The notes beneath the pieces are model-generated. The model ran no database searches and was not told the origin of the DNA. It saw nothing but the letters and a program-made list of their open reading frames with translations. The translations under genes were made by a program, and so were the position numbers. A DNA stretch of 64,000 bases, from positions 248,001 to 312,000 of the forward strand of contig NZ_LDCP01000002.1 in NCBI RefSeq assembly GCF_001021555.1. The letters are read 5' to 3'. The stretch is from Aurantiacibacter marinus (GTDB lineage Bacteria; Pseudomonadota; Alphaproteobacteria; Sphingomonadales; Sphingomonadaceae). Below are positions 42,990-54,977 of the stretch, in pieces (position 1 is the stretch's first letter; every line of letters starts with the position of its first letter).

Positions 42990-43745
42990 TCAGCGGCAAA
43001 TGCCGCGGTCCGGGCTTCGTGCCTGGTCGAGATGAAAGTGGTCTGCGTGGGCGGCATTGTAGTCGGGTGACAAGACAGTGCCGAAGCTACGGCATGCAGA
43101 ATCGCGTGTTTCCCGAAGGAACCGCGCGGATGCATTGTCTCCAGCGCTGCCCGCCTCCCAATCCTCCAGCAGGCTGATTTGTCTGCCATCTGCCAGGATA
43201 AAGGCGGATATATCGATTGCATTGCCAGTCGCATGCTCGCTCCAGTCGCCGCCTGGTGCGCCATACATCCTGCGGCAGCTATAGGTGCCAAGTTGTTCGA
43301 CCCGGATGACAGACGATCCGAGAATGTCGCGTGCGAGCCGTTGAACATCCTGATCAATCCACATGGAAAGCCCCGCTGCCACCGGGCAGGTCATCTGCGG
43401 ATCTGCGGGGACCAAAAGCGTGTCACCAAGGATCACGCGGTCTGGCCGCGCGCATTCACCGTCAATTGCTGGCTCCAGCGACGTAAAGGTCACTTCGCTG
43501 CGGTTCAAAACTGCGTGGCAGGCGGGAATATCGCCGCGCAAAGACGCCAGTTTTGCTCCGGTGAACAGGCCATGCGGATCACGCAAATCAAGCGATGCCC
43601 AGGGGTTGTGCTGCGGGTTTTCTGCCAGCCAGACACGCGCGCCCAGCAGCATTGCCGCCGCCGCCAGCAGCAGGGCAAGCCTTCCATCAGCCGCAGGGAA
43701 TGTCGGCGAGATACGCCTGGCTCTTGCCTTTGACGCCTTCGCCAT
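42990..43745 (-). CDS. Extensin-like (ExtC/M15-type) cell-wall protein
   Basis: A 251-residue protein with one N-terminal membrane helix (about 22-38) and a bacterial extensin-like C-terminal domain. The zinc-peptidase pattern of the M15/D-Ala-D-Ala carboxypeptidase fold is visible: WSEHATGNAIDISAF (SxHxxGxAxD) and HADHFHLD. Four cysteines (near IPACHAVL, GECARP, MTCPVAAG and YSCRRMYG) suggest a periplasmic disulfide-bonded protein. Its ATG overlaps the dnaE2 stop as TGATG, so it is translated from the same SOS-controlled message; a function in peptidoglycan remodelling is inferred. Confidence 0.85.
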   Translation of the reverse strand: MAKASKARARRISPTFPAADGRLALLLAAAAMLLGARVWLAENPQHNPWASLDLRDPHGLFTGAKLASLRGDIPACHAVLNRSEVTFTSLEPAIDGECARPDRVILGDTLLVPADPQMTCPVAAGLSMWIDQDVQRLARDILGSSVIRVEQLGTYSCRRMYGAPGGDWSEHATGNAIDISAFILADGRQISLLEDWEAGSAGDNASARFLRETRDSACRSFGTVLSPDYNAAHADHFHLDQARSPDRGICR

Positions 43746-46700
43746 CAGTGAAAATCGCGTGATTTGGGAATTATCCGGACATTGCGCGGGTGGCTGTGCG
43801 TAGCGGGCAATTCGTCAATCAAGTCGCGCGGACGGATTGCAGTATCTTCGTGCGGCACAGATTTTTGCCTGCCCTTACCCGAAGGCAGCGGCGAATTGAC
43901 ATGATCGGCCCGCGCGACCGGCGCGTTGAGCAGATCATCCGAAAGGCGGTGCAATTCCTGCGTTGCGTCGGTCATGTGGTGGGCGATAACGTGAATCACC
44001 TCGTCATCATACTCCACACGCCCGCGCACTTCCATTAATCGCGCGCCCATAACCACCTTGCGCTGCTTGTCCTTGAGATCGGGCCAGACAACCAGGTTGA
44101 TGACGCCGGTTTCATCCTCCAGCGTGATAAAGCACACGCCCTTCGCGCTGCCCGGCCGCTGGCGGATCAGCACCACGCCCGCAACATGCACCATGGACCG
44201 GAATTTCTTGGCCCGCAGATCGCAGGCCCGCACAAATCCGCGCTGTGCCAGACTGGCGCGCAGGAATGCCATCGGATGCGCCTTCAAACTGAGCCGCGTG
44301 GTCTGATAATCTGCCACGACCTCCTCTGACAGCGGCATTTTTGGCAGGATTGCGCGGCGGCGCTCTGCTCCCTCGTCACGCTCGTCTGCATGGGCGAACA
44401 ACGGCAAATCCTCCCCGCCCACCAGGCTGCGCGCATCCCACAGGGCCTGCCGCCGCGACAAATCCATGGAGGTGAAGGCATCGGCATTGGCGAGCCGTTC
44501 TATATGGCCAACCGGCATGCGCGCCCGGCCCCGCAATTCCCCGACATCGGTGAAAACGCCGTCCTCCGCCCGCGCCGCCAGCAATTGCGCGGCGACATGT
44601 TCGGGCAGGCCATCAACCTGGCGCAGGCCGAGGCGCAGGGCGATATGCTTGTCCGCCCTGCCGCTGACGTCCTCGCCTTCAGGGCCCTGCGCACCAGAGG
44701 GATTGAGAACCTCCAGCGTGCAATCCCATTCGCTGCAATTTACATCCACCGGCAGCACCTGCACGCCGTGCTCACGTGCATCACGCACGATCTGCGCCGG
44801 GGCGTAAAAGCCCATCGGCTGGGAATTGAGCAGTCCGCAAGCGAAGGCGGCGGGGAAATGACATTTGAGCCAACTGCTCACGTAAACCAGATGCGCAAAG
44901 CTGGCCGCATGGCTCTCTGGAAAACCATATTCGCCAAAGCCGCGGATCTGGTTGAAACACCTCTGCGCAAAATCCCGGTCATACCCGCGCGCAACCATCC
45001 GCTCGACCATCATATCCTGCAGTTCGTCCACCATGCCGCGGCTGCGGAATGTCGCCATGGCCTTGCGCAGCCGGTTGGCTTCCAGCGAAGAAAACTTCGC
45101 CGCATCGAGCGATATCTTCATCGCCTGTTCCTGAAAGATGGGCACGCCCAACGTCCGCTCCAGAATGCTGGAAAGCTCATCCGGTGGCCCATGCTCGGGC
45201 GATGGCGCGGGGATCACCACCTTTTCCGCACCCCGGCGGCGTTTGAGATACGGATGCACCATATCGCCCTGGATTGGTCCCGGGCGCACGATGGCAACCT
45301 GAATCACCAGATCATAAAACTCACGCGGGCGCAGGCGCGGCAACATGTTCATCTGCGCGCGGCTCTCAACCTGGAAAACACCCAGCGAATCGCCCTTGCG
45401 CAGCATCGCATAGGTTTCCGGATCTTCACGCGGAACGCTGGCCAGCGTCAGCGTGCGGCCGTGATGGCCTTCCAGCAGATCGAGGCATTTCTTGATGCAG
45501 GTGAGCATCCCCAGCGCCAGCACATCGACCTTCAGGATGCCCAGCGCCTCTATGTCATCCTTGTCCCATTCAATGAACGTGCGCTCTGGCATCGCGCCAT
45601 TGCCGATCGGCACCGTTTCCGTCAGCGCACTTTGCGTGAGGATAAATCCGCCAACATGCTGGGATAAATGTCGAGGCATTCCAATCATCTGCGTGGTCAA
45701 GGCAAGAACGCGCCTGAGGTGCGGATCGGTCATATCCATGCCTGTTTCCGCGACATGGTCCTCACCGATCTCGCGCCCCCACCCACCCCACACGGTCTTG
45801 GCCAGCGTGGCGGTCACATCTTCGGACAGGCCCATCGCCTTGCCCACTTCGCGGATCGCCATGCGCGGGCGATAGTGGATGACTGTGGCGGTAAGGCCCG
45901 CACGGTGGCGGCCATATCTGCGGTAAATGTACTGGATCACCTCCTCGCGCCGCTCATGCTCGAAATCGACATCGATATCGGGCGGCTCCTTGCGCTCTTC
46001 GGAAATAAACCGGTCAAACAGCAGGGCATGGCGTGCAGGATCCACGCTGGTGATTTCCAGACAATAGCAGACGGCAGAATTGGCTGCGCTGCCCCGCCCC
46101 TGGCACAGGATCGGTGGATCAACGCTGCGCGCGTAATCGACGATATCCTTGATGGTGAGAAAGTAGCGGGCGAGATCCAGCTTTCCGATCAACGCCAGCT
46201 CGCGGTGTAATGTTTCGCGCACGCTGTCCGGCACGCCGGAGGGATAGCGGTGATCTGCACCCTTCCATGTTTCCGCCACCAGATGTTGCTGCGGGGTCAT
46301 GCCGTCAGGGTAAATCTCCTCGGGATATTCGTATTTGAGCTCGTCCAGACTGAAATCGCAGGCATCGGCCACCGCCCGCGCCGCGGTGATGGCATGTGGC
46401 CAGCGTTCAAACAGCCTTAGCATCGCTTCAGGGCCTTTCAGGTGCCGTTCGGCATTGGCGTGCAGCAGGTGCCCCGCCCTCGCTACAGTGGTCTTGTGAT
46501 GAATGGCGGTCATCACATCCTGCAGCGGACGGCGACTGGGCGCGTGGTAATGCACATCATTGGTGGCGAGCAGCGCCAGCCCATTTGCGCGCGCCAACGT
46601 ATCGAGCCGGTCGATCCGGGCGATATCGTCTCCGCGATAAAGATAAGCGGCAGCAAGGTGGCGCAGTGTGGGAAGACCCGCTGCCAAGTGGCTGATAATG

Positions 46701-47269
46701 TCCACAAACCGCCCACGCACAGCCTCCTGCACGCGTTCCCCGTCCATGGTGATAACATTGCTGGCCCATGCCGGAACGGTAAACTCCTCCTCCAGATCGC
46801 TTGGAGGCAAAAGGATAAGCTGCAGACCCTCACTATCCTTGGCCAGCATGGCAAGGCTGATGTCGCACGCACCCTTGTCCTGCCATCCGCCATCCAGCGT
46901 CTGCATTCGCCCGGCACTGATCAGGCGGCACAGCCTGCCGTAAGCGGCACGGTTTTTTGGATAGGCAAGGAAGATGAGACCCTCCACCGTCTCTATTCGC
47001 GTACCGATAATCGGGCGCAATTTCAGGGTTTTCGCTTCTGTATGGATACGCACCACGCCGGCCATCGAATTGGCATCGGCAATCCCGATGGCATCATAAC
47101 CCAGCGTGTGCGCGGCCATCACAAGGTCGACCGCATCGGACGCGCCGCGCAGGAAGCTGAAGCAGGAGACTAGGCCCAGTTCCACAAAAGGCGCACGCGG
47201 CGGGGCTTCGATCAAGTCAGGATCGAGCTCTATCGTGCGTTTGTCAGGGGTAAGCGGAGCTTCGGGCAC
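43745..47269 (-). CDS. dnaE2: Error-prone DNA polymerase DnaE2
   Basis: A C-family polymerase of 1174 residues (also ImuC) that does mutagenic translesion synthesis together with ImuA and ImuB. The N-terminal PHP domain starts FVELGLVSCFSFLRGASDAVDLVMAAHTLGYDAIGIADAN. The catalytic aspartates are in PPDIDVDFEHERREEVIQYIY near residue 430. Helix-hairpin-helix and OB parts follow, with VHVAGVVLIRQRPGSAKGVCFITLEDETGVINLVVWP near the end. The start is GTG at 47269, one base after the udgX stop. It is downstream of a LexA-type operator, through the radical-SAM and udgX genes. Confidence 0.96.
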   Translation of the reverse strand: MPEAPLTPDKRTIELDPDLIEAPPRAPFVELGLVSCFSFLRGASDAVDLVMAAHTLGYDAIGIADANSMAGVVRIHTEAKTLKLRPIIGTRIETVEGLIFLAYPKNRAAYGRLCRLISAGRMQTLDGGWQDKGACDISLAMLAKDSEGLQLILLPPSDLEEEFTVPAWASNVITMDGERVQEAVRGRFVDIISHLAAGLPTLRHLAAAYLYRGDDIARIDRLDTLARANGLALLATNDVHYHAPSRRPLQDVMTAIHHKTTVARAGHLLHANAERHLKGPEAMLRLFERWPHAITAARAVADACDFSLDELKYEYPEEIYPDGMTPQQHLVAETWKGADHRYPSGVPDSVRETLHRELALIGKLDLARYFLTIKDIVDYARSVDPPILCQGRGSAANSAVCYCLEITSVDPARHALLFDRFISEERKEPPDIDVDFEHERREEVIQYIYRRYGRHRAGLTATVIHYRPRMAIREVGKAMGLSEDVTATLAKTVWGGWGREIGEDHVAETGMDMTDPHLRRVLALTTQMIGMPRHLSQHVGGFILTQSALTETVPIGNGAMPERTFIEWDKDDIEALGILKVDVLALGMLTCIKKCLDLLEGHHGRTLTLASVPREDPETYAMLRKGDSLGVFQVESRAQMNMLPRLRPREFYDLVIQVAIVRPGPIQGDMVHPYLKRRRGAEKVVIPAPSPEHGPPDELSSILERTLGVPIFQEQAMKISLDAAKFSSLEANRLRKAMATFRSRGMVDELQDMMVERMVARGYDRDFAQRCFNQIRGFGEYGFPESHAASFAHLVYVSSWLKCHFPAAFACGLLNSQPMGFYAPAQIVRDAREHGVQVLPVDVNCSEWDCTLEVLNPSGAQGPEGEDVSGRADKHIALRLGLRQVDGLPEHVAAQLLAARAEDGVFTDVGELRGRARMPVGHIERLANADAFTSMDLSRRQALWDARSLVGGEDLPLFAHADERDEGAERRRAILPKMPLSEEVVADYQTTRLSLKAHPMAFLRASLAQRGFVRACDLRAKKFRSMVHVAGVVLIRQRPGSAKGVCFITLEDETGVINLVVWPDLKDKQRKVVMGARLMEVRGRVEYDDEVIHVIAHHMTDATQELHRLSDDLLNAPVARADHVNSPLPSGKGRQKSVPHEDTAIRPRDLIDELPATHSHPRNVRIIPKSRDFH

Positions 47270-47270
47270 G

Positions 47271-48740
47271 TCACTGCCCTGACTTCTGGGCCAACTCCTC
47301 TAGCCGCGCCTTCACCGCCGCCAGATCAGCCACAAACAGCTGTTCCTGCTGCGCCTTTGCTGCGCCATCGAGCCGGAGGAGGTAGGAAGGGTGCGCAGTG
47401 ACCCACAGCTCGCTGCCATCATCCAGCGGGATCGGGCTGCCGCGCGATCTGGAAATGTTCACCGTCTTGCCGAGCAGCCCACGCGCAGCAGAAGCGCCCA
47501 GCGCCAGCACCAGCTTCGGCTTCACAATGGCGCGCTCTGCCTCCTGCCACCAGCGGCAGGTGTCCACTTCCTTGGCGGTAGGGGTCTGGTGGAGGCGGCG
47601 CTTGCCACGCTGTACGTATTTGAAATGCTTGACCGCATTGGTGACGTAGGCGGCGCGGCGATCAATCCCGGTCGCTTCCAGCGCCGCATCGAGCACTTGT
47701 CCGGCAGGGCCTACGAAGGGGCGGCCCGCCAGATCCTCCTGATCGCCGGGCTGTTCGCCCACAATCATCAGGGCTGCATCCTGCGGCCCTTCGCCCATCA
47801 CTGCGTGGTTTTCGAGAGAGCCGATCGGACAATTGCGGCAGGCGTGTATCGCCTTGGAGATGGCCTCCAGCGTATCGGGCTGCGCTGCGTAATCCGCCTT
47901 TCCTTCCGCCACCATCGCGCTTTCCCGCTGCTGCGCGCCTGCAATCAGTTCCGGAATAAGCGCCGCTTCGGGCATGTTCTTCCAGTATTTCTTGGGCATT
48001 TCCTTCAGCATCGCGCCGATCTTCAACCGCGCGGGATTGAAGGTGGAGGCATAATATTTGCGCCACAGATCCTCCGCCGGATCGCCACTGGGCGCATCGG
48101 ACTTTTGCGCAGGCGGACCTTCGCACAACACTTTGGTGTCCCAATGGAGGCTGCCGCGCGGGGTGAGGATCGACCAGTGCATATTGGCGAAACGGCGCAC
48201 GAAGAATCCCGCCTCCCGGCGCAGGATGTGATGGTCAGGTTCAAACCACGCAACATAATGCTCCGGCGCCTCTGGCTCATCGGCATTCTCTACGCGGCGG
48301 AAGCGCACGAAGGCGTGCATCTTATGCGCATCGCGGCGCACTGCCTTTTCCAGTTCCTCCACCCGGCGCACATCAGTGTCCGCCTTGTCTTCCATCATTC
48401 GCGGGCTGGATTGTAGCCGCCACAGCAGGCGATAAAGCAGGGAAAACCTTTCAGGGTCAGAATGATGTGCGGCAGTCTTCGCTATTTGCATGAATCGCTT
48501 GCTGGCGCGCACGGGGCAGCCAGGATCATCCGGCACTGGCAAGCGCTTTTCCGACCGCGCCGGCCCCTCTTGCGCAAACAGATCGCTTGCCCCGCCCGGC
48601 TCCACCCAATTCACCCGGTCCGGCGGAATATCGCATTGTACCAGCTGCCGCGCCCGTTCCCGCCAGAAGGCGAAATCATCGGGCTCCGGCAGGTGCACCG
48701 CGTAATAGGCACCGAAATTGACATGCTGGAGCGCGGTCAT
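47271..48740 (-). CDS. udgX: DUF4130 - UdgX uracil-DNA-binding fusion protein
   Basis: A 489-residue two-part protein. Residues 1 to about 270 are a DUF4130-type domain (FGAYYAVHLPEPDDFAFWRERAR, KRFMQIAKTAAHHSDPERFSLLYRLLWRL). The C-terminal part is a family 4/UdgX uracil-DNA glycosylase: four-Cys Fe-S family start ACRNCPIG, motif GEQPGDQEDLAGRPFVGPAG near 331, the UdgX-specific KRRLH loop near 381, and HPSYLLR near 451. In UdgX the His of this loop becomes covalently joined to the abasic site. It overlaps the radical-SAM gene by 4 nt and abuts dnaE2. Confidence 0.93.
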   Translation of the reverse strand: MTALQHVNFGAYYAVHLPEPDDFAFWRERARQLVQCDIPPDRVNWVEPGGASDLFAQEGPARSEKRLPVPDDPGCPVRASKRFMQIAKTAAHHSDPERFSLLYRLLWRLQSSPRMMEDKADTDVRRVEELEKAVRRDAHKMHAFVRFRRVENADEPEAPEHYVAWFEPDHHILRREAGFFVRRFANMHWSILTPRGSLHWDTKVLCEGPPAQKSDAPSGDPAEDLWRKYYASTFNPARLKIGAMLKEMPKKYWKNMPEAALIPELIAGAQQRESAMVAEGKADYAAQPDTLEAISKAIHACRNCPIGSLENHAVMGEGPQDAALMIVGEQPGDQEDLAGRPFVGPAGQVLDAALEATGIDRRAAYVTNAVKHFKYVQRGKRRLHQTPTAKEVDTCRWWQEAERAIVKPKLVLALGASAARGLLGKTVNISRSRGSPIPLDDGSELWVTAHPSYLLRLDGAAKAQQEQLFVADLAAVKARLEELAQKSGQ

Positions 48741-49981
48741 GCCGCAAACAGTTCCAGCTGCTCCTGTTTAGGAGCCAGCAGGCTACGCAGGTCAGCGCGG
48801 TCGGTCAGCATAACAGGCCGCCAATCCGCCGTCTCAATAAAGGGCCGCACCTTGGTGATGGAGACTGTCAGTTTTGCCACATCATCCAATCGCAAGGTCC
48901 GATGGCGGCGGCTGGCGAGAATCTGGCTGACAGCACGGGTCCCCAGCCCTGGTACACGAAGCAACATTTCGCGGGAGGAGCGGTTCACATCCACCGGATA
49001 TTGCTCACGAAATTTAAGCGCCCATGCCAGCTTGGGATCGATATCGAGCGGCAGATTGCCGTCCGCCCCGGTCGCCTGCATCACTTCGCGCGGGGCAAAG
49101 CCGTAAAACCGCATCAGCCAGTCAGACTGGTAAAGCCGGTGTTCGCGCATCAGCGGGGGACGCTTCAGCGGCAGCACTGCGCTCGCATCGGGAATAGGCG
49201 AGAACGCCGAGTAATAAACGCGGCGCAGCTTGAAGCCGGTATAAAGCCGGCTCGCCTTGCCCACGATATCGGCATCGGTGGCAGCATCGGCCCCAACGAT
49301 CATCTGCGTCGATTGCCCGCCCGGAGCAAACCGCGGCGCATGTTTGAACCGCTTGCGCTCATCCTTGGCCTGAATGATCGCGCTTTTTACACCGCCCATC
49401 GCGCCTTCAATCTGCAACGCATTCTTGTCCGGCGCGAGGCGGGTGAGGCCAGCATCGGTCGGCAATTCGACATTGATAGAAACGCGGTCTGCATACAGCC
49501 CGGCCTGATGCACCAGCTGCGGATCAGCCTCCGGAATGGTTTTGAGGTGAATATAGCCGCGGAAATCATGGTCTTCCCGCAGGATACGCGCGGTTTCTAC
49601 CATCTGCTCCATCGTGAAGTCGGAGCTTTTGATAATGCCCGAAGAAAGGAACAGCCCTTCGATATAATTGCGCCGGTAAAAGGTCAGCGTCAGGTCCGCG
49701 ACTTCCTGCGGCGTGAAGCGTGCGCGGCGAACATTGCTGCTCTTGCGGTTCACGCAGTAATGACAATCGAAGATACAGTGATTGGTCAGCAATATCTTGA
49801 GCAGCGATATGCAGCGGCCATCGGGAGCATAGGCGTGGCAAATGCCCATTCCCTCTGTCGAGCCGACACCCTTCCCGCCCTTGGAATTGCGTTTGGCCGT
49901 GCCGGACGACGCGCAGGACGCATCATATTTCGCCGCATCGGCAAGGATTTCCAGCTTTTGAATGGTATCGAGTGCAGGCAT
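48737..49981 (-). CDS. Putative DNA modification/repair radical SAM protein
   Basis: A 414-residue radical SAM protein of the family found next to UDG/DUF4130 genes. The 4Fe-4S motif is CIFDCHYC (Cys69, 73, 76), flanked by LLKILLTNHC and VNRKSSNVRRARFTPQEVA. The C-terminus has a helix-hairpin-helix, LLRVPGLGTRAVSQILASRRHRTL, typical of DNA-binding proteins. The reaction is not known; it may repair or sanction damaged bases with UdgX. I set the start at MPALDTIQKLEILADAAKYDASC (49981) because the LexA operator lies directly in front and the ribosome-binding site AAGGAA fits; an ATG at 50038 would put the operator inside the gene. Confidence 0.92.
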   Translation of the reverse strand: MPALDTIQKLEILADAAKYDASCASSGTAKRNSKGGKGVGSTEGMGICHAYAPDGRCISLLKILLTNHCIFDCHYCVNRKSSNVRRARFTPQEVADLTLTFYRRNYIEGLFLSSGIIKSSDFTMEQMVETARILREDHDFRGYIHLKTIPEADPQLVHQAGLYADRVSINVELPTDAGLTRLAPDKNALQIEGAMGGVKSAIIQAKDERKRFKHAPRFAPGGQSTQMIVGADAATDADIVGKASRLYTGFKLRRVYYSAFSPIPDASAVLPLKRPPLMREHRLYQSDWLMRFYGFAPREVMQATGADGNLPLDIDPKLAWALKFREQYPVDVNRSSREMLLRVPGLGTRAVSQILASRRHRTLRLDDVAKLTVSITKVRPFIETADWRPVMLTDRADLRSLLAPKQEQLELFAA

Positions 49982-49983
49982 TT

Positions 49984-49998
49984 GTTCCTTATATGTTC
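49984..49998 (-). promoter_or_regulatory. LexA (SOS) operator before the radical-SAM/udgX/dnaE2 operon
   Basis: GTTCCTTATATGTTC is an exact GTTC-N7-GTTC alphaproteobacterial LexA box. It ends 2 bases before the start codon of the radical-SAM gene and contains its AAGGAA ribosome-binding site on the minus strand. Confidence 0.9.
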
Positions 49999-50118
49999 TC
50001 ACAACGGATTCGCCAAGCGTCATCTGCCGGAAAATCACCGGATGCCTGTGTAAACCATATCTGTTCGCCTGATCTTAACCACTCTGGGCCGAGAGACCCT
50101 GCAGGAGGAAACGCACCC

Positions 50119-50529
50119 ATGAGATTGTTCGCCCGTGCCAAAACTGCTGACGTCCCTGAAAGACGCGGCGGACCGCGAACAAGGGTGGATTGCATTGCAA
50201 CACTGCTGATGCCCAGCGGGGACCGTCCCGGGCGGCTGTTCGATATTTCCGCCACCGGCGCGCGCCTGTCCACGCAAGTGCCGCCATCCCCCGGATCTGC
50301 GGGTATTCTCGACTGGTCGCTCCACGAAGCCTTTTGCAAGGTCACATGGTCAAAACCCGGCATGTGCGGGATTGTGTTCGACAGGCCGATCAGTGCGGAA
50401 GTCCTGCAAGAAACCATTGAAAAGGCACCTGCCGGAACGCGGATAATTTCCGCCGCGCACGCAAACGACGCTGGTGAAGCAACGCAGGATACACACGGGA
50501 ACCCTCCTCCGGCACGCCTACCTTGCTAG
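50119..50529 (+). CDS. PilZ-domain protein
   Basis: A 136-residue protein starting at ATG 50119 behind a near-perfect AGGAGGAA. It looks like a PilZ domain: ERRGGPRTRVDCIATLLMPSGDRPGRLFDISATGARLSTQ, in which RxxxR and (D/N)xSxxG c-di-GMP-binding residues are placed as expected (RGGPRTR and DISATGAR), followed by the beta-barrel WSKPGMCGIVFDRPIS. It is divergent from the SOS operon. A role in c-di-GMP response is inferred from the family. Confidence 0.85.
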   Translation: MRLFARAKTADVPERRGGPRTRVDCIATLLMPSGDRPGRLFDISATGARLSTQVPPSPGSAGILDWSLHEAFCKVTWSKPGMCGIVFDRPISAEVLQETIEKAPAGTRIISAAHANDAGEATQDTHGNPPPARLPC

Positions 50530-50652: not shown

Positions 50653-51462
50653 ATGGATATCATGGCACTACTCACCGATCCGGCCGCTTGGCTGGCCCTG
50701 CTCACCCTCATCGCTCTCGAAGTGATCCTGGGGATAGATAATCTGATCTTCATCGCGATCCTGTCCAACAAACTGCCCGAGCATCAACAGAGCAAGGCCC
50801 GGCGCATCGGGCTGGCGCTGGCGCTGATCATGCGGATCGGCCTGCTGATGCTGATCGGCTGGATCGTGACCTTGCAGACCCCGCTTTTCGATCTCGGCAT
50901 AGAAGGTGCCCGCGGACCATACGGCGAACCGACCTTTGAAACGGCCTTTTCCGGGCGCGACCTGATCCTGCTGGTGGGCGGCCTGTTCCTGCTGTGGAAG
51001 GCCACCAAGGAAATCCACCATTCGATGGAGCCGGAAGACAATTCAGGCGACCTGCTCGACAAAACCCCTGGCATAGCCAAGGCCGCCACCGCCACTTTCG
51101 GAACAGTGATCGCGCAGATCGTTGCCATTGACATCGTGTTTTCAGTGGATTCGATTCTGACCGCTGTTGGCATGACCGATCACGTGCCGATCATGATTAC
51201 CGCCGTCGTTATAACCGTGGGCGTCATGATGGTTGCCGCCGACCCGCTGGCGCGCTTTATCGAGCAGAACCCGACGCTGGTGATGCTGGCGCTCGCCTTC
51301 CTGGTCATGATCGGCCTGGTGCTGATCGCCGACGGCTTCGGCTTCCACGTGCCCAAGGGGTATATCTATGTGGCAATGGGCTTCTCGGTTGGCGTGGAAA
51401 TCCTCAACATCGTGCAACGGAACAAGCGAGCGCGGCTGGCGGCTGGCGCAGGGCAAGTGTAG
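50653..51462 (+). CDS. TerC family integral membrane protein
   Basis: A 269-residue protein with seven or more membrane helices. The TerC motifs are ALEVILGIDNLIFIAILSNKLP at the N-terminus and the second inverted-repeat motif IAQIVAIDIVFSVDSILTAVGMTDH, each with conserved acidic residues in the membrane. The group contains Mn-exporting and tellurite-resistance-linked proteins; the present role is most likely metal (Mn2+) efflux, by inference. It ends two bases before the convergent S41 gene, with no terminator between them. Confidence 0.92.
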   Translation: MDIMALLTDPAAWLALLTLIALEVILGIDNLIFIAILSNKLPEHQQSKARRIGLALALIMRIGLLMLIGWIVTLQTPLFDLGIEGARGPYGEPTFETAFSGRDLILLVGGLFLLWKATKEIHHSMEPEDNSGDLLDKTPGIAKAATATFGTVIAQIVAIDIVFSVDSILTAVGMTDHVPIMITAVVITVGVMMVAADPLARFIEQNPTLVMLALAFLVMIGLVLIADGFGFHVPKGYIYVAMGFSVGVEILNIVQRNKRARLAAGAGQV

Positions 51463-51464
51463 CC

Positions 51465-52625
51465 TTAGGGAACGGTGACGTCCTCTCGCGGGACACCACC
51501 TACGGTATAGAGCCGTTCGACCGGTAGCTTGATCAGAAATCCGGTGTTGCTGGTCGTCAGGTCGTAAACAGCACCCAACAGCCCGGCCATCGCGTGCCCT
51601 TCCAGTTCTGCACCCTGCGCCTGGAGACCAATCGCAAGGCCTTCTCCCATGCTGCCTGTCCAGCGACCGACCCGGACGGTTACGTGTCCATCGAAATTCT
51701 TGCCTTCGCGCGGGACGATATATTCGGCCCATTGACGTGCGATGCCGGTCTGGCGCTGTTCGGCTGGCAGCGTATGGATCTGGTAGGGTGACGGCTGATC
51801 CACAAACCAGCCCATGATGCCGCGCGCGACAACGGTGTTGCCCCCGCTTGGCGTGTCAGTCAGATCAAGCAACACCCTTTCGGCATCGCCTGTCTGTTCC
51901 ATTGCGCTGTCGAAAGCCGCGATGGTGCCGTTGTTGCCAAGGGAATCGTTGAACCGGACCTGCAAGGTATTGCCTTCACGCGTGACGGTGACCGGTTCGC
52001 TGCCGGCTTGCTGGCCCTGATACAGGTTGGGAAGTTCGATTGATACGTCCCGGCCAGCTCCCTCCAGCCCGAGAATGCGCGGCCTGTCCCGTCTTCCTGC
52101 CACGAGCACGCGGGCTGCAAAGGCTTTGCTCTCGGCATCTCTCGTGTCATCGCCAAGGTCGTTCCAGAAAGCATCGACTGCTTGCGCGATAGGTACGCCG
52201 CCGACTTCGGTCAGCCTTGCGCCGGGCAATATGCCTGCCTGCTCTGCTGGCGATGCACTGCGGACGGCATCGACAAGATATTCGCCGTCACGATAAATGA
52301 TCCAGAGGTCCGCATAGGATGGAACCACGGCCCAGCTGTCCGAGGCAGAACTGCCGGTGATCGCGTGGTGGTCGCGCAGGATGAGCAGGAGGTTTTCGGC
52401 AAAATGCAACAGGCTGGAACTGTCGCCGACGGCGTCTGCCTGAGCCTGCAGGACGGCGTTAACGGGTATCTGACCGCCTTCGAAGCGTTCCGGATAGGCA
52501 TATGCCTGTTGGACCATTTCGATCAGCTGTTGCGCATCTTCCTGATAATCTGCCGACGTGGTCTGGGCCAACAGCGGTGTCGGCAGCAACAGCAGAAGCG
52601 GGGCGAGTATACGGAGAAATTTCAT
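51465..52625 (-). CDS. S41-family (C-terminal processing type) peptidase
   Basis: A 386-residue exported protein with a signal peptide (MKFLRILAPLLLLLPTPLLAQ). A PDZ-like part (GEYLVDAVRSASPAEQAGILPGARLTEVGGVPI) precedes an S41 peptidase core: RVLLDLTDTPSGGNTVVARGIMGWF and VRVGRWTGSMGEGLAIGLQ, with the presumed nucleophile Ser near residue 325 in TGSMGE. It is 30 nt downstream of imuB on the same strand and could be read through from the SOS promoter, though nothing else links it to repair. Confidence 0.83.
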   Translation of the reverse strand: MKFLRILAPLLLLLPTPLLAQTTSADYQEDAQQLIEMVQQAYAYPERFEGGQIPVNAVLQAQADAVGDSSSLLHFAENLLLILRDHHAITGSSASDSWAVVPSYADLWIIYRDGEYLVDAVRSASPAEQAGILPGARLTEVGGVPIAQAVDAFWNDLGDDTRDAESKAFAARVLVAGRRDRPRILGLEGAGRDVSIELPNLYQGQQAGSEPVTVTREGNTLQVRFNDSLGNNGTIAAFDSAMEQTGDAERVLLDLTDTPSGGNTVVARGIMGWFVDQPSPYQIHTLPAEQRQTGIARQWAEYIVPREGKNFDGHVTVRVGRWTGSMGEGLAIGLQAQGAELEGHAMAGLLGAVYDLTTSNTGFLIKLPVERLYTVGGVPREDVTVP

Positions 52626-52655: not shown

Positions 52656-54290
52656 TCAAGCAAACAGCCCTTGCAGGAACCAGTCCGGCTCTCCGCCGCG
52701 CCCGTCCCCGGCGATGCCAGCGCGGTATATCCAGTAACGGCGGCCGGTATCGTCTTCGATGCGGTAATAATCGCGCAGGCGGGTAGAGCCTTTCTCGCGC
52801 CACCATTCAGGAGCAATGCGTTCCGGCCCTTCCACCCGTGCCACTTCGAACACACCGCCGCGCCAGCGGAAACGGCGGGGATAGCCGTCCGGGCTGGCAT
52901 AAAGCACCGCGATCCGCTCTGCCTGGTCCAGCAGTTTCAGGGGCCGTGCGTGAAAGGCGAGTTCCTCCTGCTGCGGGGCTTCCGCCTCCAGCGGCGGCTG
53001 CCAGCCTTGCGCCCGTTCCGGGATATGGCTGGCGCGCAGGACCGGGCGCTGCACGGCCGCTGTGCCCAGCCTGACGGTGAGCCGATCGATACAGGCTGCC
53101 AGACTGGTGCCGTGCTCCTCCGCTGCCGCTTCGAGATCGGCCTGGCCCAGCTTCAGCGGCTCTGCCCAGCTGGCGCGCAGGCGCAGCATCTCTATCCCGA
53201 AACCCGCATCGACATCGTCCAGCTTGGCGGCAAACAGGCGGCAGATGTGGGCAGGATCGCGCGTGGCGGCCGCCAGTTCCAGATCGCGCAGCACAACCTC
53301 GCCGTCCACCCGCCACAGGCCAAGCTGAAGGCGGCGTGCACCCTCGCCCCGCCCTTCCAGCTCGCGCGCCATATCCGCGGCAAGGTCTTCCACCACCTTG
53401 TCGAGCAGGTTGCGATGCCGGATCGGCTCCATCAGGCGGCGCTGTACCAGTGCGGCGGAAAGCGGGATGACCGGAAGCAAGGGTTCAGGCACGCGGCCCC
53501 TCAACTGGTCCATCCGGATCAGCGGATTGGCGGCAGGCGATTTGCGGTTGCGGAAGCGGCGGTGGACAGCATCGCGGCCATTGGCCCCCTCCCCGATACC
53601 GGCAAGATCGCCAAGCCGTTTTAGGCCAAGACGCCGGAGGACGAGCAGCACGTCATTATCAAGCCGCAGTGCTGCAACAGGCAGGTCTGCAAGGCGGTCC
53701 GCGATATCATCACCCGGTGTAAGAATGGCCTCCGGCGGGGCGTAATGCGCCAGCGCCCAGGCGGCCCCGGCAGTGGGCGCGACGGCAGACCTGACAGACA
53801 GCCCGCGCGCCTTGCAGCGCTGTGCCACATCGGCCAGCAGGCGGCGCTCTCCGCCGAACAGATGCGCAACGGCGGTCACGTCCACCAGCAGGCCATCAGG
53901 CGCGTCGATCGCGCTCCACGGCCCCCAGCGCTGCGCCCACACCGCCAGCCGTTCCAGAAATGCGAGATCGCCCGCCGGATCGCTCGGGCGGACTTGCAGA
54001 TGCGGGCATAGCGTGCGGGCATCGGCCAACATCATGCCGCACACGGAACCCTCTGCCCGTGCAGCGACATTTGCGGCATCGATGCGCGGGCCATGCGCAG
54101 TTTCGGTGATCAGCGCCAGTGGCTGCGCATCTGCGCCTTCGCCCGCTGTGCAGGCTTCAGAGTGCCGCCAGCGATCGAGCGCCAGTTCGCAGGTCCAGAT
54201 CGCCATGATTCGCCGGGGCTGGGTCTGGCGAGGTGGCGGTGTCTGCATGACGTTCTGGGGGGCGCTCGGCGGCGAGGAAAGATCCTTCAT
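52656..54290 (-). CDS. imuB: ImuB, inactive Y-family polymerase of the SOS mutasome
   Basis: An adaptor that links DnaE2 to the beta clamp. The Y-family fold starts at RRIMAIWTCELALDRWRH, and positions that hold metal-binding acids in active DinB enzymes are replaced (AIWTCELA, LLVDVTAVAHLFGGERRL). The C-terminal half has a conserved ERIAPEWW...RLRDYYRIEDDTGRRYWIYR segment. The start is uncertain: ATG 54290 gives an extra proline-rich head and a 134-nt overlap with imuA, while ATG 54206 begins right at the conserved part. It pairs with imuA and, functionally, with dnaE2 about 5 kb away. Confidence 0.92.
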   Translation of the reverse strand: MKDLSSPPSAPQNVMQTPPPRQTQPRRIMAIWTCELALDRWRHSEACTAGEGADAQPLALITETAHGPRIDAANVAARAEGSVCGMMLADARTLCPHLQVRPSDPAGDLAFLERLAVWAQRWGPWSAIDAPDGLLVDVTAVAHLFGGERRLLADVAQRCKARGLSVRSAVAPTAGAAWALAHYAPPEAILTPGDDIADRLADLPVAALRLDNDVLLVLRRLGLKRLGDLAGIGEGANGRDAVHRRFRNRKSPAANPLIRMDQLRGRVPEPLLPVIPLSAALVQRRLMEPIRHRNLLDKVVEDLAADMARELEGRGEGARRLQLGLWRVDGEVVLRDLELAAATRDPAHICRLFAAKLDDVDAGFGIEMLRLRASWAEPLKLGQADLEAAAEEHGTSLAACIDRLTVRLGTAAVQRPVLRASHIPERAQGWQPPLEAEAPQQEELAFHARPLKLLDQAERIAVLYASPDGYPRRFRWRGGVFEVARVEGPERIAPEWWREKGSTRLRDYYRIEDDTGRRYWIYRAGIAGDGRGGEPDWFLQGLFA

Positions 54291-54945
54291 CGCGCAAGGT
54301 CCATTCTCCGGGGGCGTGCGTACGGGCACGAAACAACTGTGCCTGCCACGCCGGATGACCGGGCGCGGCGGGATTCCACAGCGGCGGAGCGGAAGGTGCG
54401 GCGACCACATCCCAGCGCATGCGGGCGGAACTGAGATCGTGCTCGGCGTTCAAACGGACAAGAAACAGCGGCACACCATGTCTTTTCGCCGCCAGACTGA
54501 GCCGGCGCGATGCAGTAAAATCCAGTGCACGCGGATTGCCTGCCACTTCACCTATGACGCAGGCGAGATCACGGCAGCGAACGCCCTCTTCCAGTGCGAA
54601 AAGCGCATCTTCGGGAGTTTTGGCCGCAACATGGATCAGACGGTGGCGCAAGGCTTCGGGCAGACCGGGGCGATAGGGCCGCCCAGCCAGGCGCTGCGCC
54701 TTCATGTCCTGCACCCACAATATACAGCGCTCTTGCGTATCGTCTTTTGGCGCGCCTTCAGATTCGCGCGCAGAGGCACGCATACCGTCCAGCGCAAGCG
54801 CCAGTGCTGCGCCCGCGCCACTCGCCTCAGTGCCGGGGGTGAAAATCTCGCTATGCAATGCAGCTTGCCCGCCCGGGTGCCAGCGTGAATTGCGGGCAGC
54901 GGGACAGGCCAGCTCCACTGCGCGCGGCAGGGAAGCCATGTCCAT
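54157..54945 (-). CDS. imuA: ImuA, SOS mutasome protein
   Basis: A 262-residue RecA/SulA-like protein, first gene of the imuA-imuB unit. Traits are LHSEIFTPGTEASGAGAALALAL near the N-terminus, CILWVQDMKAQRLAGRPYRPGL, HVAAKTPEDALFALEEGVRCRDLACVIGEVAGNPRALDFTASRRLSLAAKRHGVPLFLVR, and an extended proline-rich tail. A LexA operator lies 18 bases before the start, followed by AAAGGAG. It overlaps imuB. Its biochemical function in mutagenesis is to promote the ImuB-DnaE2 complex with RecA. Confidence 0.92.
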   Translation of the reverse strand: MDMASLPRAVELACPAARNSRWHPGGQAALHSEIFTPGTEASGAGAALALALDGMRASARESEGAPKDDTQERCILWVQDMKAQRLAGRPYRPGLPEALRHRLIHVAAKTPEDALFALEEGVRCRDLACVIGEVAGNPRALDFTASRRLSLAAKRHGVPLFLVRLNAEHDLSSARMRWDVVAAPSAPPLWNPAAPGHPAWQAQLFRARTHAPGEWTLRDEGSFLAAERPPERHADTATSPDPAPANHGDLDLRTGARSLAAL

Positions 54946-54962: not shown

Positions 54963-54977
54963 GTTCTACTTATGTTC
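54963..54977 (-). promoter_or_regulatory. LexA (SOS) operator before imuA-imuB
   Basis: GTTCTACTTATGTTC is an exact GTTC-N7-GTTC box, 18 nt from the imuA start codon and about 105 nt before the divergent flavin-binding protein gene. Confidence 0.9.

Follow-up and report, generated by a model that had tools for sequence, protein, structure and literature searches.

A predicted SOS-induced translesion cassette of Aurantiacibacter marinus with a radical-SAM operon between imuA-imuB and dnaE2

We analyzed a 64,000-nucleotide (nt) stretch of the Aurantiacibacter marinus genome (NZ_LDCP01000002.1:248001-312000, on contig C2 of the 2.84-Mb genome G000), further referred to as the window. Its minus strand carries imuA, imuB and dnaE2, and between imuB and dnaE2 lie the genes for a radical S-adenosylmethionine (SAM) protein of the TIGR03916 family (rSAM_link_UDG), further referred to as rSAM, and for a fusion of DUF4130 with UdgX, a uracil-DNA glycosylase (UDG). 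We consider it rather probable, from sequence comparison, that the locus is an SOS-induced translesion cassette with the order imuA-imuB-[rSAM - DUF4130-UdgX]-dnaE2, in which a clamp-tethered rSAM lesion-processing unit would be co-induced with the mutasome. The inserted part would be a separate SOS operon, rSAM and DUF4130-UdgX behind a LexA box of their own, the promoter of which also serves dnaE2.

The original prediction described a perfect GTTC-N7-GTTC box in front of a tight minus-strand array of rSAM, DUF4130-UdgX and dnaE2. Both points were confirmed: the box has no mismatches, the rSAM and udgX genes overlap by 4 nt (48737-48740), the gap between udgX and dnaE2 is 1 nt, and all three products score above the curated cut-offs (Table 1). 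The further claim that the array is a LexA-controlled operon is supported in silico by the conserved box and by the coupling of the genes. What had been missed is imuA-imuB, located 2.7 kb upstream of rSAM on the same strand with its own LexA box. In the window imuB is not directly before dnaE2, as rSAM-udgX and three more genes intervene. Given imuA-imuB upstream and a DnaE2 above its cut-off, we describe the locus as an imuA-imuB-dnaE2 cassette with an insert.

The bare GTTC-N7-GTTC motif was ruled out as evidence, since its frequency is no higher than chance: there are two matches in the window vs 1.43 expected, and 58 in the genome vs 92 for a reversed control pattern. We then used its position in relatives. 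Further, "family" counts refer to the 199 genomes of the host's taxonomic family and "named" counts to loci from named genomes; some genomes occur in both sets, as three identical DnaE2 pairs show, and the counts were hence not summed. Around the rSAM starts of 210 loci, 206 matches fell within 40.9 kb, compared with two in 143.7 kb further upstream and none in 239.4 kb inside the gene, and 162 matches are located at exactly −17 from the rSAM start. Of 130 family loci, 128 have a box within −160 to +20 of the estimated start (missing in L072 and L096), as do 78 of 80 named ones (missing in L178 and L205). Because this fixed position is beyond chance, the LexA box is taken as real although the frequency of the bare motif is not beyond chance. 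The lexA gene itself (C2:88284-88943) has the same alpha-type box just upstream (C2:88975). Thus the operon has the features of a putative member of an alphaproteobacterial LexA regulon: the motif at the promoter, its retention in relatives and a box at lexA.

In alphaproteobacteria outside the family, a perfect box shortly precedes rSAM in 13 of 14 loci (the exception is L269). No GTTC-N7-GTTC box was found near rSAM in 20 loci of other proteobacterial classes; there, CTGT-N8-ACAG, which we take to be the E. coli-type LexA box, begins 7–48 nt before the estimated rSAM start in 17 loci (all but L365, L366 and L383). A table in the available part of PMC9578287 agrees with this type of box. Thus the rSAM module appears to keep LexA-type boxes even where the LexA motif is a different one. 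Elsewhere in the A. marinus genome, two perfect GTTC-N7-GTTC boxes 18 nt apart (G000:C3:291699-291713 and 291732-291746) may mark a strongly controlled SOS promoter, and a second, weak match to the LexA family (27.5 bits, under the cut-off; G000:C3:217699-217950) has a perfect box about 650 nt away (C3:217035).

rSAM proteins above the cut-off were found in 131 of the 199 family genomes; in the class and phylum samples, 17 of 241 and 103 of 397 genomes have them. In 124 of 130 family loci and 75 of 80 named loci, DUF4130-UdgX is located no more than 3 kb downstream of rSAM; for the six remaining family loci DUF4130 is present elsewhere in the genome. The link to dnaE2 is less general. Among the matches listed, dnaE2 is directly downstream in 42 of the 131 rSAM genomes of the family, only elsewhere in 59, and was not found in 30. 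Among the fetched loci it is linked in 22 of 99 evaluable family loci (L051 of G179 runs into a contig edge) and in 24 of 72 named loci. Hence the part of the original prediction concerning conservation in relatives is supported for the box, and for the order with dnaE2 in a part of the relatives; an order conserved everywhere was ruled out by these family counts and by its absence from 34 loci outside the family.

On the same strand upstream, imuA-imuB is present in 23 of the 24 linked named loci (in L152 none was seen within 7 kb), and a box precedes imuA in 25 of 27 loci (26 named loci and the window; the exceptions are L144, the flank of which is too short, and L152, where imuA was not seen). 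The full cassette is present, for example, in Tsuneonella litorea YG55 (L143). The distance between udgX and dnaE2 is from −1 to 14 nt in 20 of the 24 linked named loci, and 111, 111, 293 and 622 nt in the others. The estimated end of imuB is only 45–89 nt before the rSAM start in L145, L151, L154 and L179; as the udgX-dnaE2 distance is 1 nt in L145 and 4 nt in L179, the five genes are contiguous in these two loci. The original prediction would have been challenged by a separate promoter before dnaE2. In the window and 23 of the 24 linked named loci (24 loci together), no second LexA box was found between rSAM and dnaE2. A promoter scan of positions 43600-50200 gave no minus-strand site and says little, because any promoter before rSAM was missed too.

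For comparison, we considered 20 dnaE2 regions of unlinked genomes (19 with rSAM elsewhere, plus G012). The stretches stop about 100 nt into dnaE2, and a piece of DnaE2 was seen in 11 of them. In all 20, imuA-imuB is directly before dnaE2 behind one box. G012 belongs to the same genus as A. marinus and has no rSAM; its ImuB and DnaE2 are 74% and 78% identical to the window proteins. Reduced forms of the cassette were seen in another set of 20 dnaE2 regions, which overlaps with the former one in G086, G114 and G176. Two of them, L325 (G180) and L326 (G129), lack both rSAM and DUF4130 and carry a UdgX-only gene behind a LexA box and before dnaE2. The frames are open without stops (279 amino acids (aa) in G180, 244 aa in G129) and contain GEQPG, KRRLH and HPSYLLR. 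The whole rSAM/DUF4130/UdgX set is present in G062, a member of the same genus, and the UdgX-only state is read as probable loss of rSAM and DUF4130. In L318 (G169) the rSAM upstream stretch, the box and the gene start are kept (149 nt, 74% identical to L155, E-value 3e-21); this remnant runs into dnaE2, so that dnaE2 is directly behind the rSAM box there. In L321 and L323 a box is located within 80 nt of dnaE2, without rSAM. In L329 (G035) imuA-imuB and dnaE2 are transcribed divergently, and the stretch between them has one box, next to dnaE2. The remaining 14 regions are plain imuA-imuB-dnaE2 with no box near dnaE2.

A DnaE2 tree of 71 rows requires six changes of the linked state, and 44 of the 50 linked rows together with one box-only row form one group (SH-aLRT, the approximate likelihood ratio test of Shimodaira–Hasegawa type, 86). 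The tree is a quick one, with SH-aLRT support only and a very long outgroup branch; three identical row pairs mean that some genomes stand twice, and L313 (short) and L291 (one of the two G169 copies) were left out. Gain followed by repeated loss of the dnaE2 linkage would fit the footprints described above, and several gains could also explain them.

These data bear on the alternative that co-regulation is all there is: a rearrangement parked dnaE2 behind an existing SOS promoter, and the proteins do not cooperate. This is a real possibility, if an unlikely one. It would account for linkage that is confined to a part of the family and apparently was lost more than once, and for the rSAM genes that are accompanied elsewhere by DUF4130 or DUF4130-UdgX behind LexA boxes without dnaE2. 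It does not predict that the place of insertion is specific, between imuB and dnaE2, that udgX is so closely spaced with dnaE2, or that the clamp-type motif of rSAM, described below, resembles that of the mutasome.

The presence of the families in the 199 family genomes shows which parts of the cassette belong together; these counts treat related genomes as independent, and p values were therefore disregarded. Both rSAM and DUF4130 occur in 131 genomes, rSAM alone in none, DUF4130 alone in two (G042, a weak match, and G148, at a contig edge), and neither in 66. Both rSAM and UdgX occur in 129 genomes, rSAM without UdgX in two (G103 and G191), UdgX without rSAM in 14, and neither in 54; 12 of the 14 UdgX-only genomes, all but G042 and G148, have no DUF4130 either. 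Among the rSAM-carrying alphaproteobacteria outside the family, DUF4130 was found in 14 of 14, whereas no UdgX above the cut-off was found in five (G407, G362, G342, G332 and G422), and in two UdgX is located only away from rSAM. From this constant pairing and the absences of UdgX we conclude that rSAM and DUF4130 are one unit and UdgX is separable. The rSAM of the window adjoins DUF4130 in the same way as in the TIGR03916/TIGR03915 pairing.

The original prediction proposed a single sequential pathway, where UdgX covalently captures uracil or a modified base, rSAM processes the adduct and DnaE2 bypasses the rest. The DUF4130-UdgX fusion, the tight operon and the presence of UdgX above the cut-off in 129 of the 131 rSAM genomes of the family agree with it. 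Nevertheless, the five genomes with rSAM and DUF4130 and without UdgX, and the 14 of 143 UdgX genomes of the family without rSAM above the cut-off, speak against it. The UdgX-only forms in G129 and G180, open and with the checked motifs present, together with the rSAM remnant fused to dnaE2 in G169, argue against an obligatory order of UdgX, rSAM and DnaE2. We regard such a pathway as improbable, and its obligatory form is not supported. That rSAM and DUF4130 release or resolve UdgX-DNA cross-links is very improbable: the fusion speaks for it, and in the available part of PMC10359453 the fate of the UdgX adduct is only suggested (RecA-dependent pathways or proteases), but the separability of UdgX tells against it as well.

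Several variants of the rSAM-udgX operon were seen. A hemerythrin HHE gene (about 160 aa) stands on the rSAM strand between rSAM and DUF4130-UdgX, e.g. in L188, L195, L202, L204, L206 and L213; it matched PF01814 in both cases scanned, and a motif search of the gap gave 10 of 124 family loci and 16 of 75 named loci with UdgX downstream. Thus a di-iron protein occurs inside a radical-SAM SOS operon. Of 158 plasmid records matching rSAM, three were opened; two of these carry the plain rSAM-UdgX operon, and the third is without annotation. Phaeobacter inhibens DSM 17395 and Paracoccus denitrificans PD1222 have this plain operon together with a LexA box. In one record, L386 (Phaeobacter inhibens plasmid pPGA1_262), a ligase of the "cisplatin damage response" and its exonuclease partner are 4–5 kb from the operon. 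Ten records of phage collections also match rSAM; one of them, L385 (CAKLQH020000003.1, 240 kb, labelled Acinetobacter phage), contains glyS, glyQ and aidB and looks like a bacterial chromosome, and another that was opened has no annotation.

The match of the window rSAM to TIGR03916 spans residues 8–406, and its C-terminus ends in QLELFAA in a low-confidence tail of the structural model. QLSLF and QLDLF are textbook motifs of proteins that bind the sliding clamp. The last 25 residues of 294 rSAMs (260 distinct) were compared with 200 shuffles. Q[LM]x[LM][FILVA] was found in 240 of the 260 distinct tails (shuffled mean 6.6, largest 13), and QLxLF in 182 (shuffled mean 0.7, largest 4). rSAM therefore has a conserved QLxLF-type peptide in a flexible segment, as expected of a beta-clamp client, and is predicted to be one. 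The mutasome proteins of the window also have clamp-type motifs, QLGLW in ImuB and DLPLF in DnaE2; for the mycobacterial ImuB the motif QLPLWG is needed for mutasome function (PMC10421592, available part).

Across 55 chosen rSAMs, with identity down to 48%, C23, C48, H49, C57, C69, C73 and C76 do not vary. We propose that the three cysteines and the histidine beyond the SAM cluster may form a second metal site. The AlphaFold2 model of rSAM has a mean predicted local distance difference test (pLDDT) score of 82.6, with the last two blocks at 69 and 48. Profile matches of the helix-hairpin-helix (HhH) domain are weak, to ComEA-type and RuvA chains (E-value 0.0095 and worse). Among the 50 of 1256 Foldseek matches listed no closer radical-SAM subfamily is named, and HydE, MiaB and lipoyl synthase lead. 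One could suppose that rSAM is a direct reversal enzyme of the spore photoproduct lyase (SplB) type, as the available part of PMC3765255 calls the rSAM partners of DUF4130 SplB-like, and the CX3CX2C motif, HhH and LexA control agree with this. We assign it a small probability: NCBIfam gives TIGR03916 alone, and no spore photoproduct lyase occurs in 21 PDB sequence matches (E-value up to 1) or in the Foldseek matches listed, although a missing match is weak evidence.

In DUF4130, R27, R31, D121, H139, R146, R183, R238, W253 and E258 are identical in all 60 rows of the alignment; the 50 Foldseek rows listed are filled by UDG-fold matches, and none of these rows identifies the DUF4130 fold. The UdgX part has the motifs of this family, namely GEQPG (motif A, with its glutamine), the R-loop histidine and HPS...R (motif B), and its catalytic residues are present in 55–57 of the 57–58 spanning rows of the 60-row alignment. 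According to the available part of PMC10359453, the UdgX of Mycobacterium smegmatis excises uracil and covalently caps the abasic site, its R-loop histidine being the cross-linking residue, and its physiological role is largely unknown.

Returning to the translesion cassette, we suggest the following mechanism. Upon damage, RecA would become active, LexA would be cleaved and both boxes would open. ImuB would dock on the sliding clamp and organize the mutasome with DnaE2, as known for mycobacteria (PMC10421592). rSAM would dock on the clamp via its QLELF tail, with HhH holding the DNA, and together with its constant partner DUF4130 could remove or alter a replication-blocking base by radical chemistry. 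UdgX would be a separable add-on for excision of uracil and covalent capping of the abasic site, as suggested by the conserved residues, and DnaE2 would copy the remaining damage. A more detailed version, which we put forward as speculative and rather doubtful, is that TIGR03916 is a clamp-tethered radical-SAM DNA-repair enzyme beside the ImuB-DnaE2 mutasome, that DUF4130 is its obligate catalytic partner, and that it converts the blocking base in place for DnaE2, perhaps using a second Fe-S site (C23, C48, C57, H49). If true, translesion synthesis would here include a lesion-editing step of its own.

Several observations weigh against the cassette and its mechanism. SOS induction, clamp docking and rSAM chemistry are predictions. 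No dnaE2 linkage was seen in the 14 alphaproteobacterial loci outside the family or in the 20 loci of other classes; as most relatives are not linked, rSAM must be able to function without the linkage. The clamp motif is a short one, and clamp binding is predicted. Of the 260 tails, 14 lack Q[LM]x[LM] (12 read QFELF, QASLF or similar, and two are cut-short frames), and in six more it is followed by W or S. The low quality of the model at residues 24–36 and 59–61 leaves the second cluster a proposal.

Even so, the cassette suggests when the rSAM/DUF4130 pair acts (the SOS response), and the tail motif suggests where rSAM acts (the sliding clamp). The reduced forms in relatives tell which parts belong together, rSAM with DUF4130, and UdgX as separable. 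TIGR03916 and TIGR03915 are described as putative only, and these three lines together make the orphan enzyme open to direct tests in laboratory strains.

The coordinates of the locus are given in Table 1. An extensin-like_C open reading frame (ORF) comes after dnaE2. The listed PilZ ORF and the LexA box overlap close to the GTG start of the ORF, the real start of which may be further in.

Table 1. Coordinates of the features of the locus, numbered from the first nucleotide of the window.
Feature	Position	Strand	Remarks
LexA box	49984-49998	minus	GTTCCTTATATGTTC, 0 mismatches; coding strand GAACATATAAGGAAC; ends 2 nt before rSAM ATG (49981)
rSAM with C-terminal HhH, 414 aa	48737-49981	minus	TIGR03916, 573 bits vs cut-off 343.5
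CX3CX2C [4Fe-4S]/SAM motif (C69, C73, C76)	49754-49777	minus	
QLELF, rSAM residues 408-412	48746-48760	minus	beta-clamp-binding-type motif
DUF4130-UdgX fusion, 489 aa	47271-48740	minus	TIGR03915, 222 bits; TIGR03914, 317 bits
UdgX R-loop KRRLH	47589-47603	minus	predicted cross-linking His H384 (at the position of H109 in M. smegmatis)
dnaE2, GTG start, 1174 aa	43745-47269	minus	NF004225, 1380 bits vs cut-off 939; DLPLF at residues 954-958
Second perfect LexA box	54963-54977	minus	17 nt before imuA ATG
imuA, 262-aa reading from ATG at 54945	54157-54945	minus	named from conserved order in the family
imuB	52656-54410	minus	matches to IMS, IMS_C and DUF6504; ORF read from its first ATG, actual start possibly internal; QLGLW at ORF residues 362-366
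S41/PDZ gene	51465-52625	minus	between imuB and rSAM
TerC gene	50653-51462	plus	between imuB and rSAM
PilZ ORF	49972-50529	plus	between imuB and rSAM

Parts of the system have been described before. In its available text, PMC3765255, on SRAP and ImuB-C SOS-associated proteins, ties DUF4130, SplB-like rSAM and UDG together and to SOS neighbourhoods; this text describes no rSAM-udgX inside imuAB-dnaE2, no reduced forms and no clamp motif. In UDG-bearing DNA polymerases (a C-family variant in the available part of PMC3919608, and the phiLo family-A polymerase, PDB 9qhs) a UDG is joined to a polymerase by fusion, and in the window as a gene neighbour. Neither rSAM nor UDG is among the DnaE2 association modules listed in section 20 of PMC12926913. 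The five-gene cassette, the clamp-type rSAM tail and the reduced forms were not met with in the open-licence literature searched; SOS control of this type of UDG operon has been published.

We take COG4277 to be the TIGR03916 rSAM family. The available part of PMC8565304 predicts SOS regulation for a two-gene COG1573-COG4277 UDG operon of Bacteroidetes; for Verrucomicrobia and Alphaproteobacteria it cites reports of UDG-based repair under SOS control. The window operon consists of the same families above the curated cut-offs (TIGR03916, TIGR03915/DUF4130 and TIGR03914/UdgX), but it lies inserted between imuB and dnaE2, an interval in which no LexA box other than its own was seen. With the UdgX of M. 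smegmatis (motifs in the available part of PMC10359453) it shares GEQPG, the KRR(L/I)H R-loop and HPS (phmmer E-value 7e-47 to 6ail); the solved chains of that protein have about 200–230 aa, whereas the UdgX of the window is fused behind DUF4130 and is SOS-linked. Finally, as in the Caulobacter-type imuA-imuB-dnaE2 cassette (imuABC), imuA, imuB and dnaE2 share a strand and a LexA box precedes imuA; unlike it, the cassette of the window is split by rSAM-udgX with its own box and by the S41, TerC and PilZ genes.

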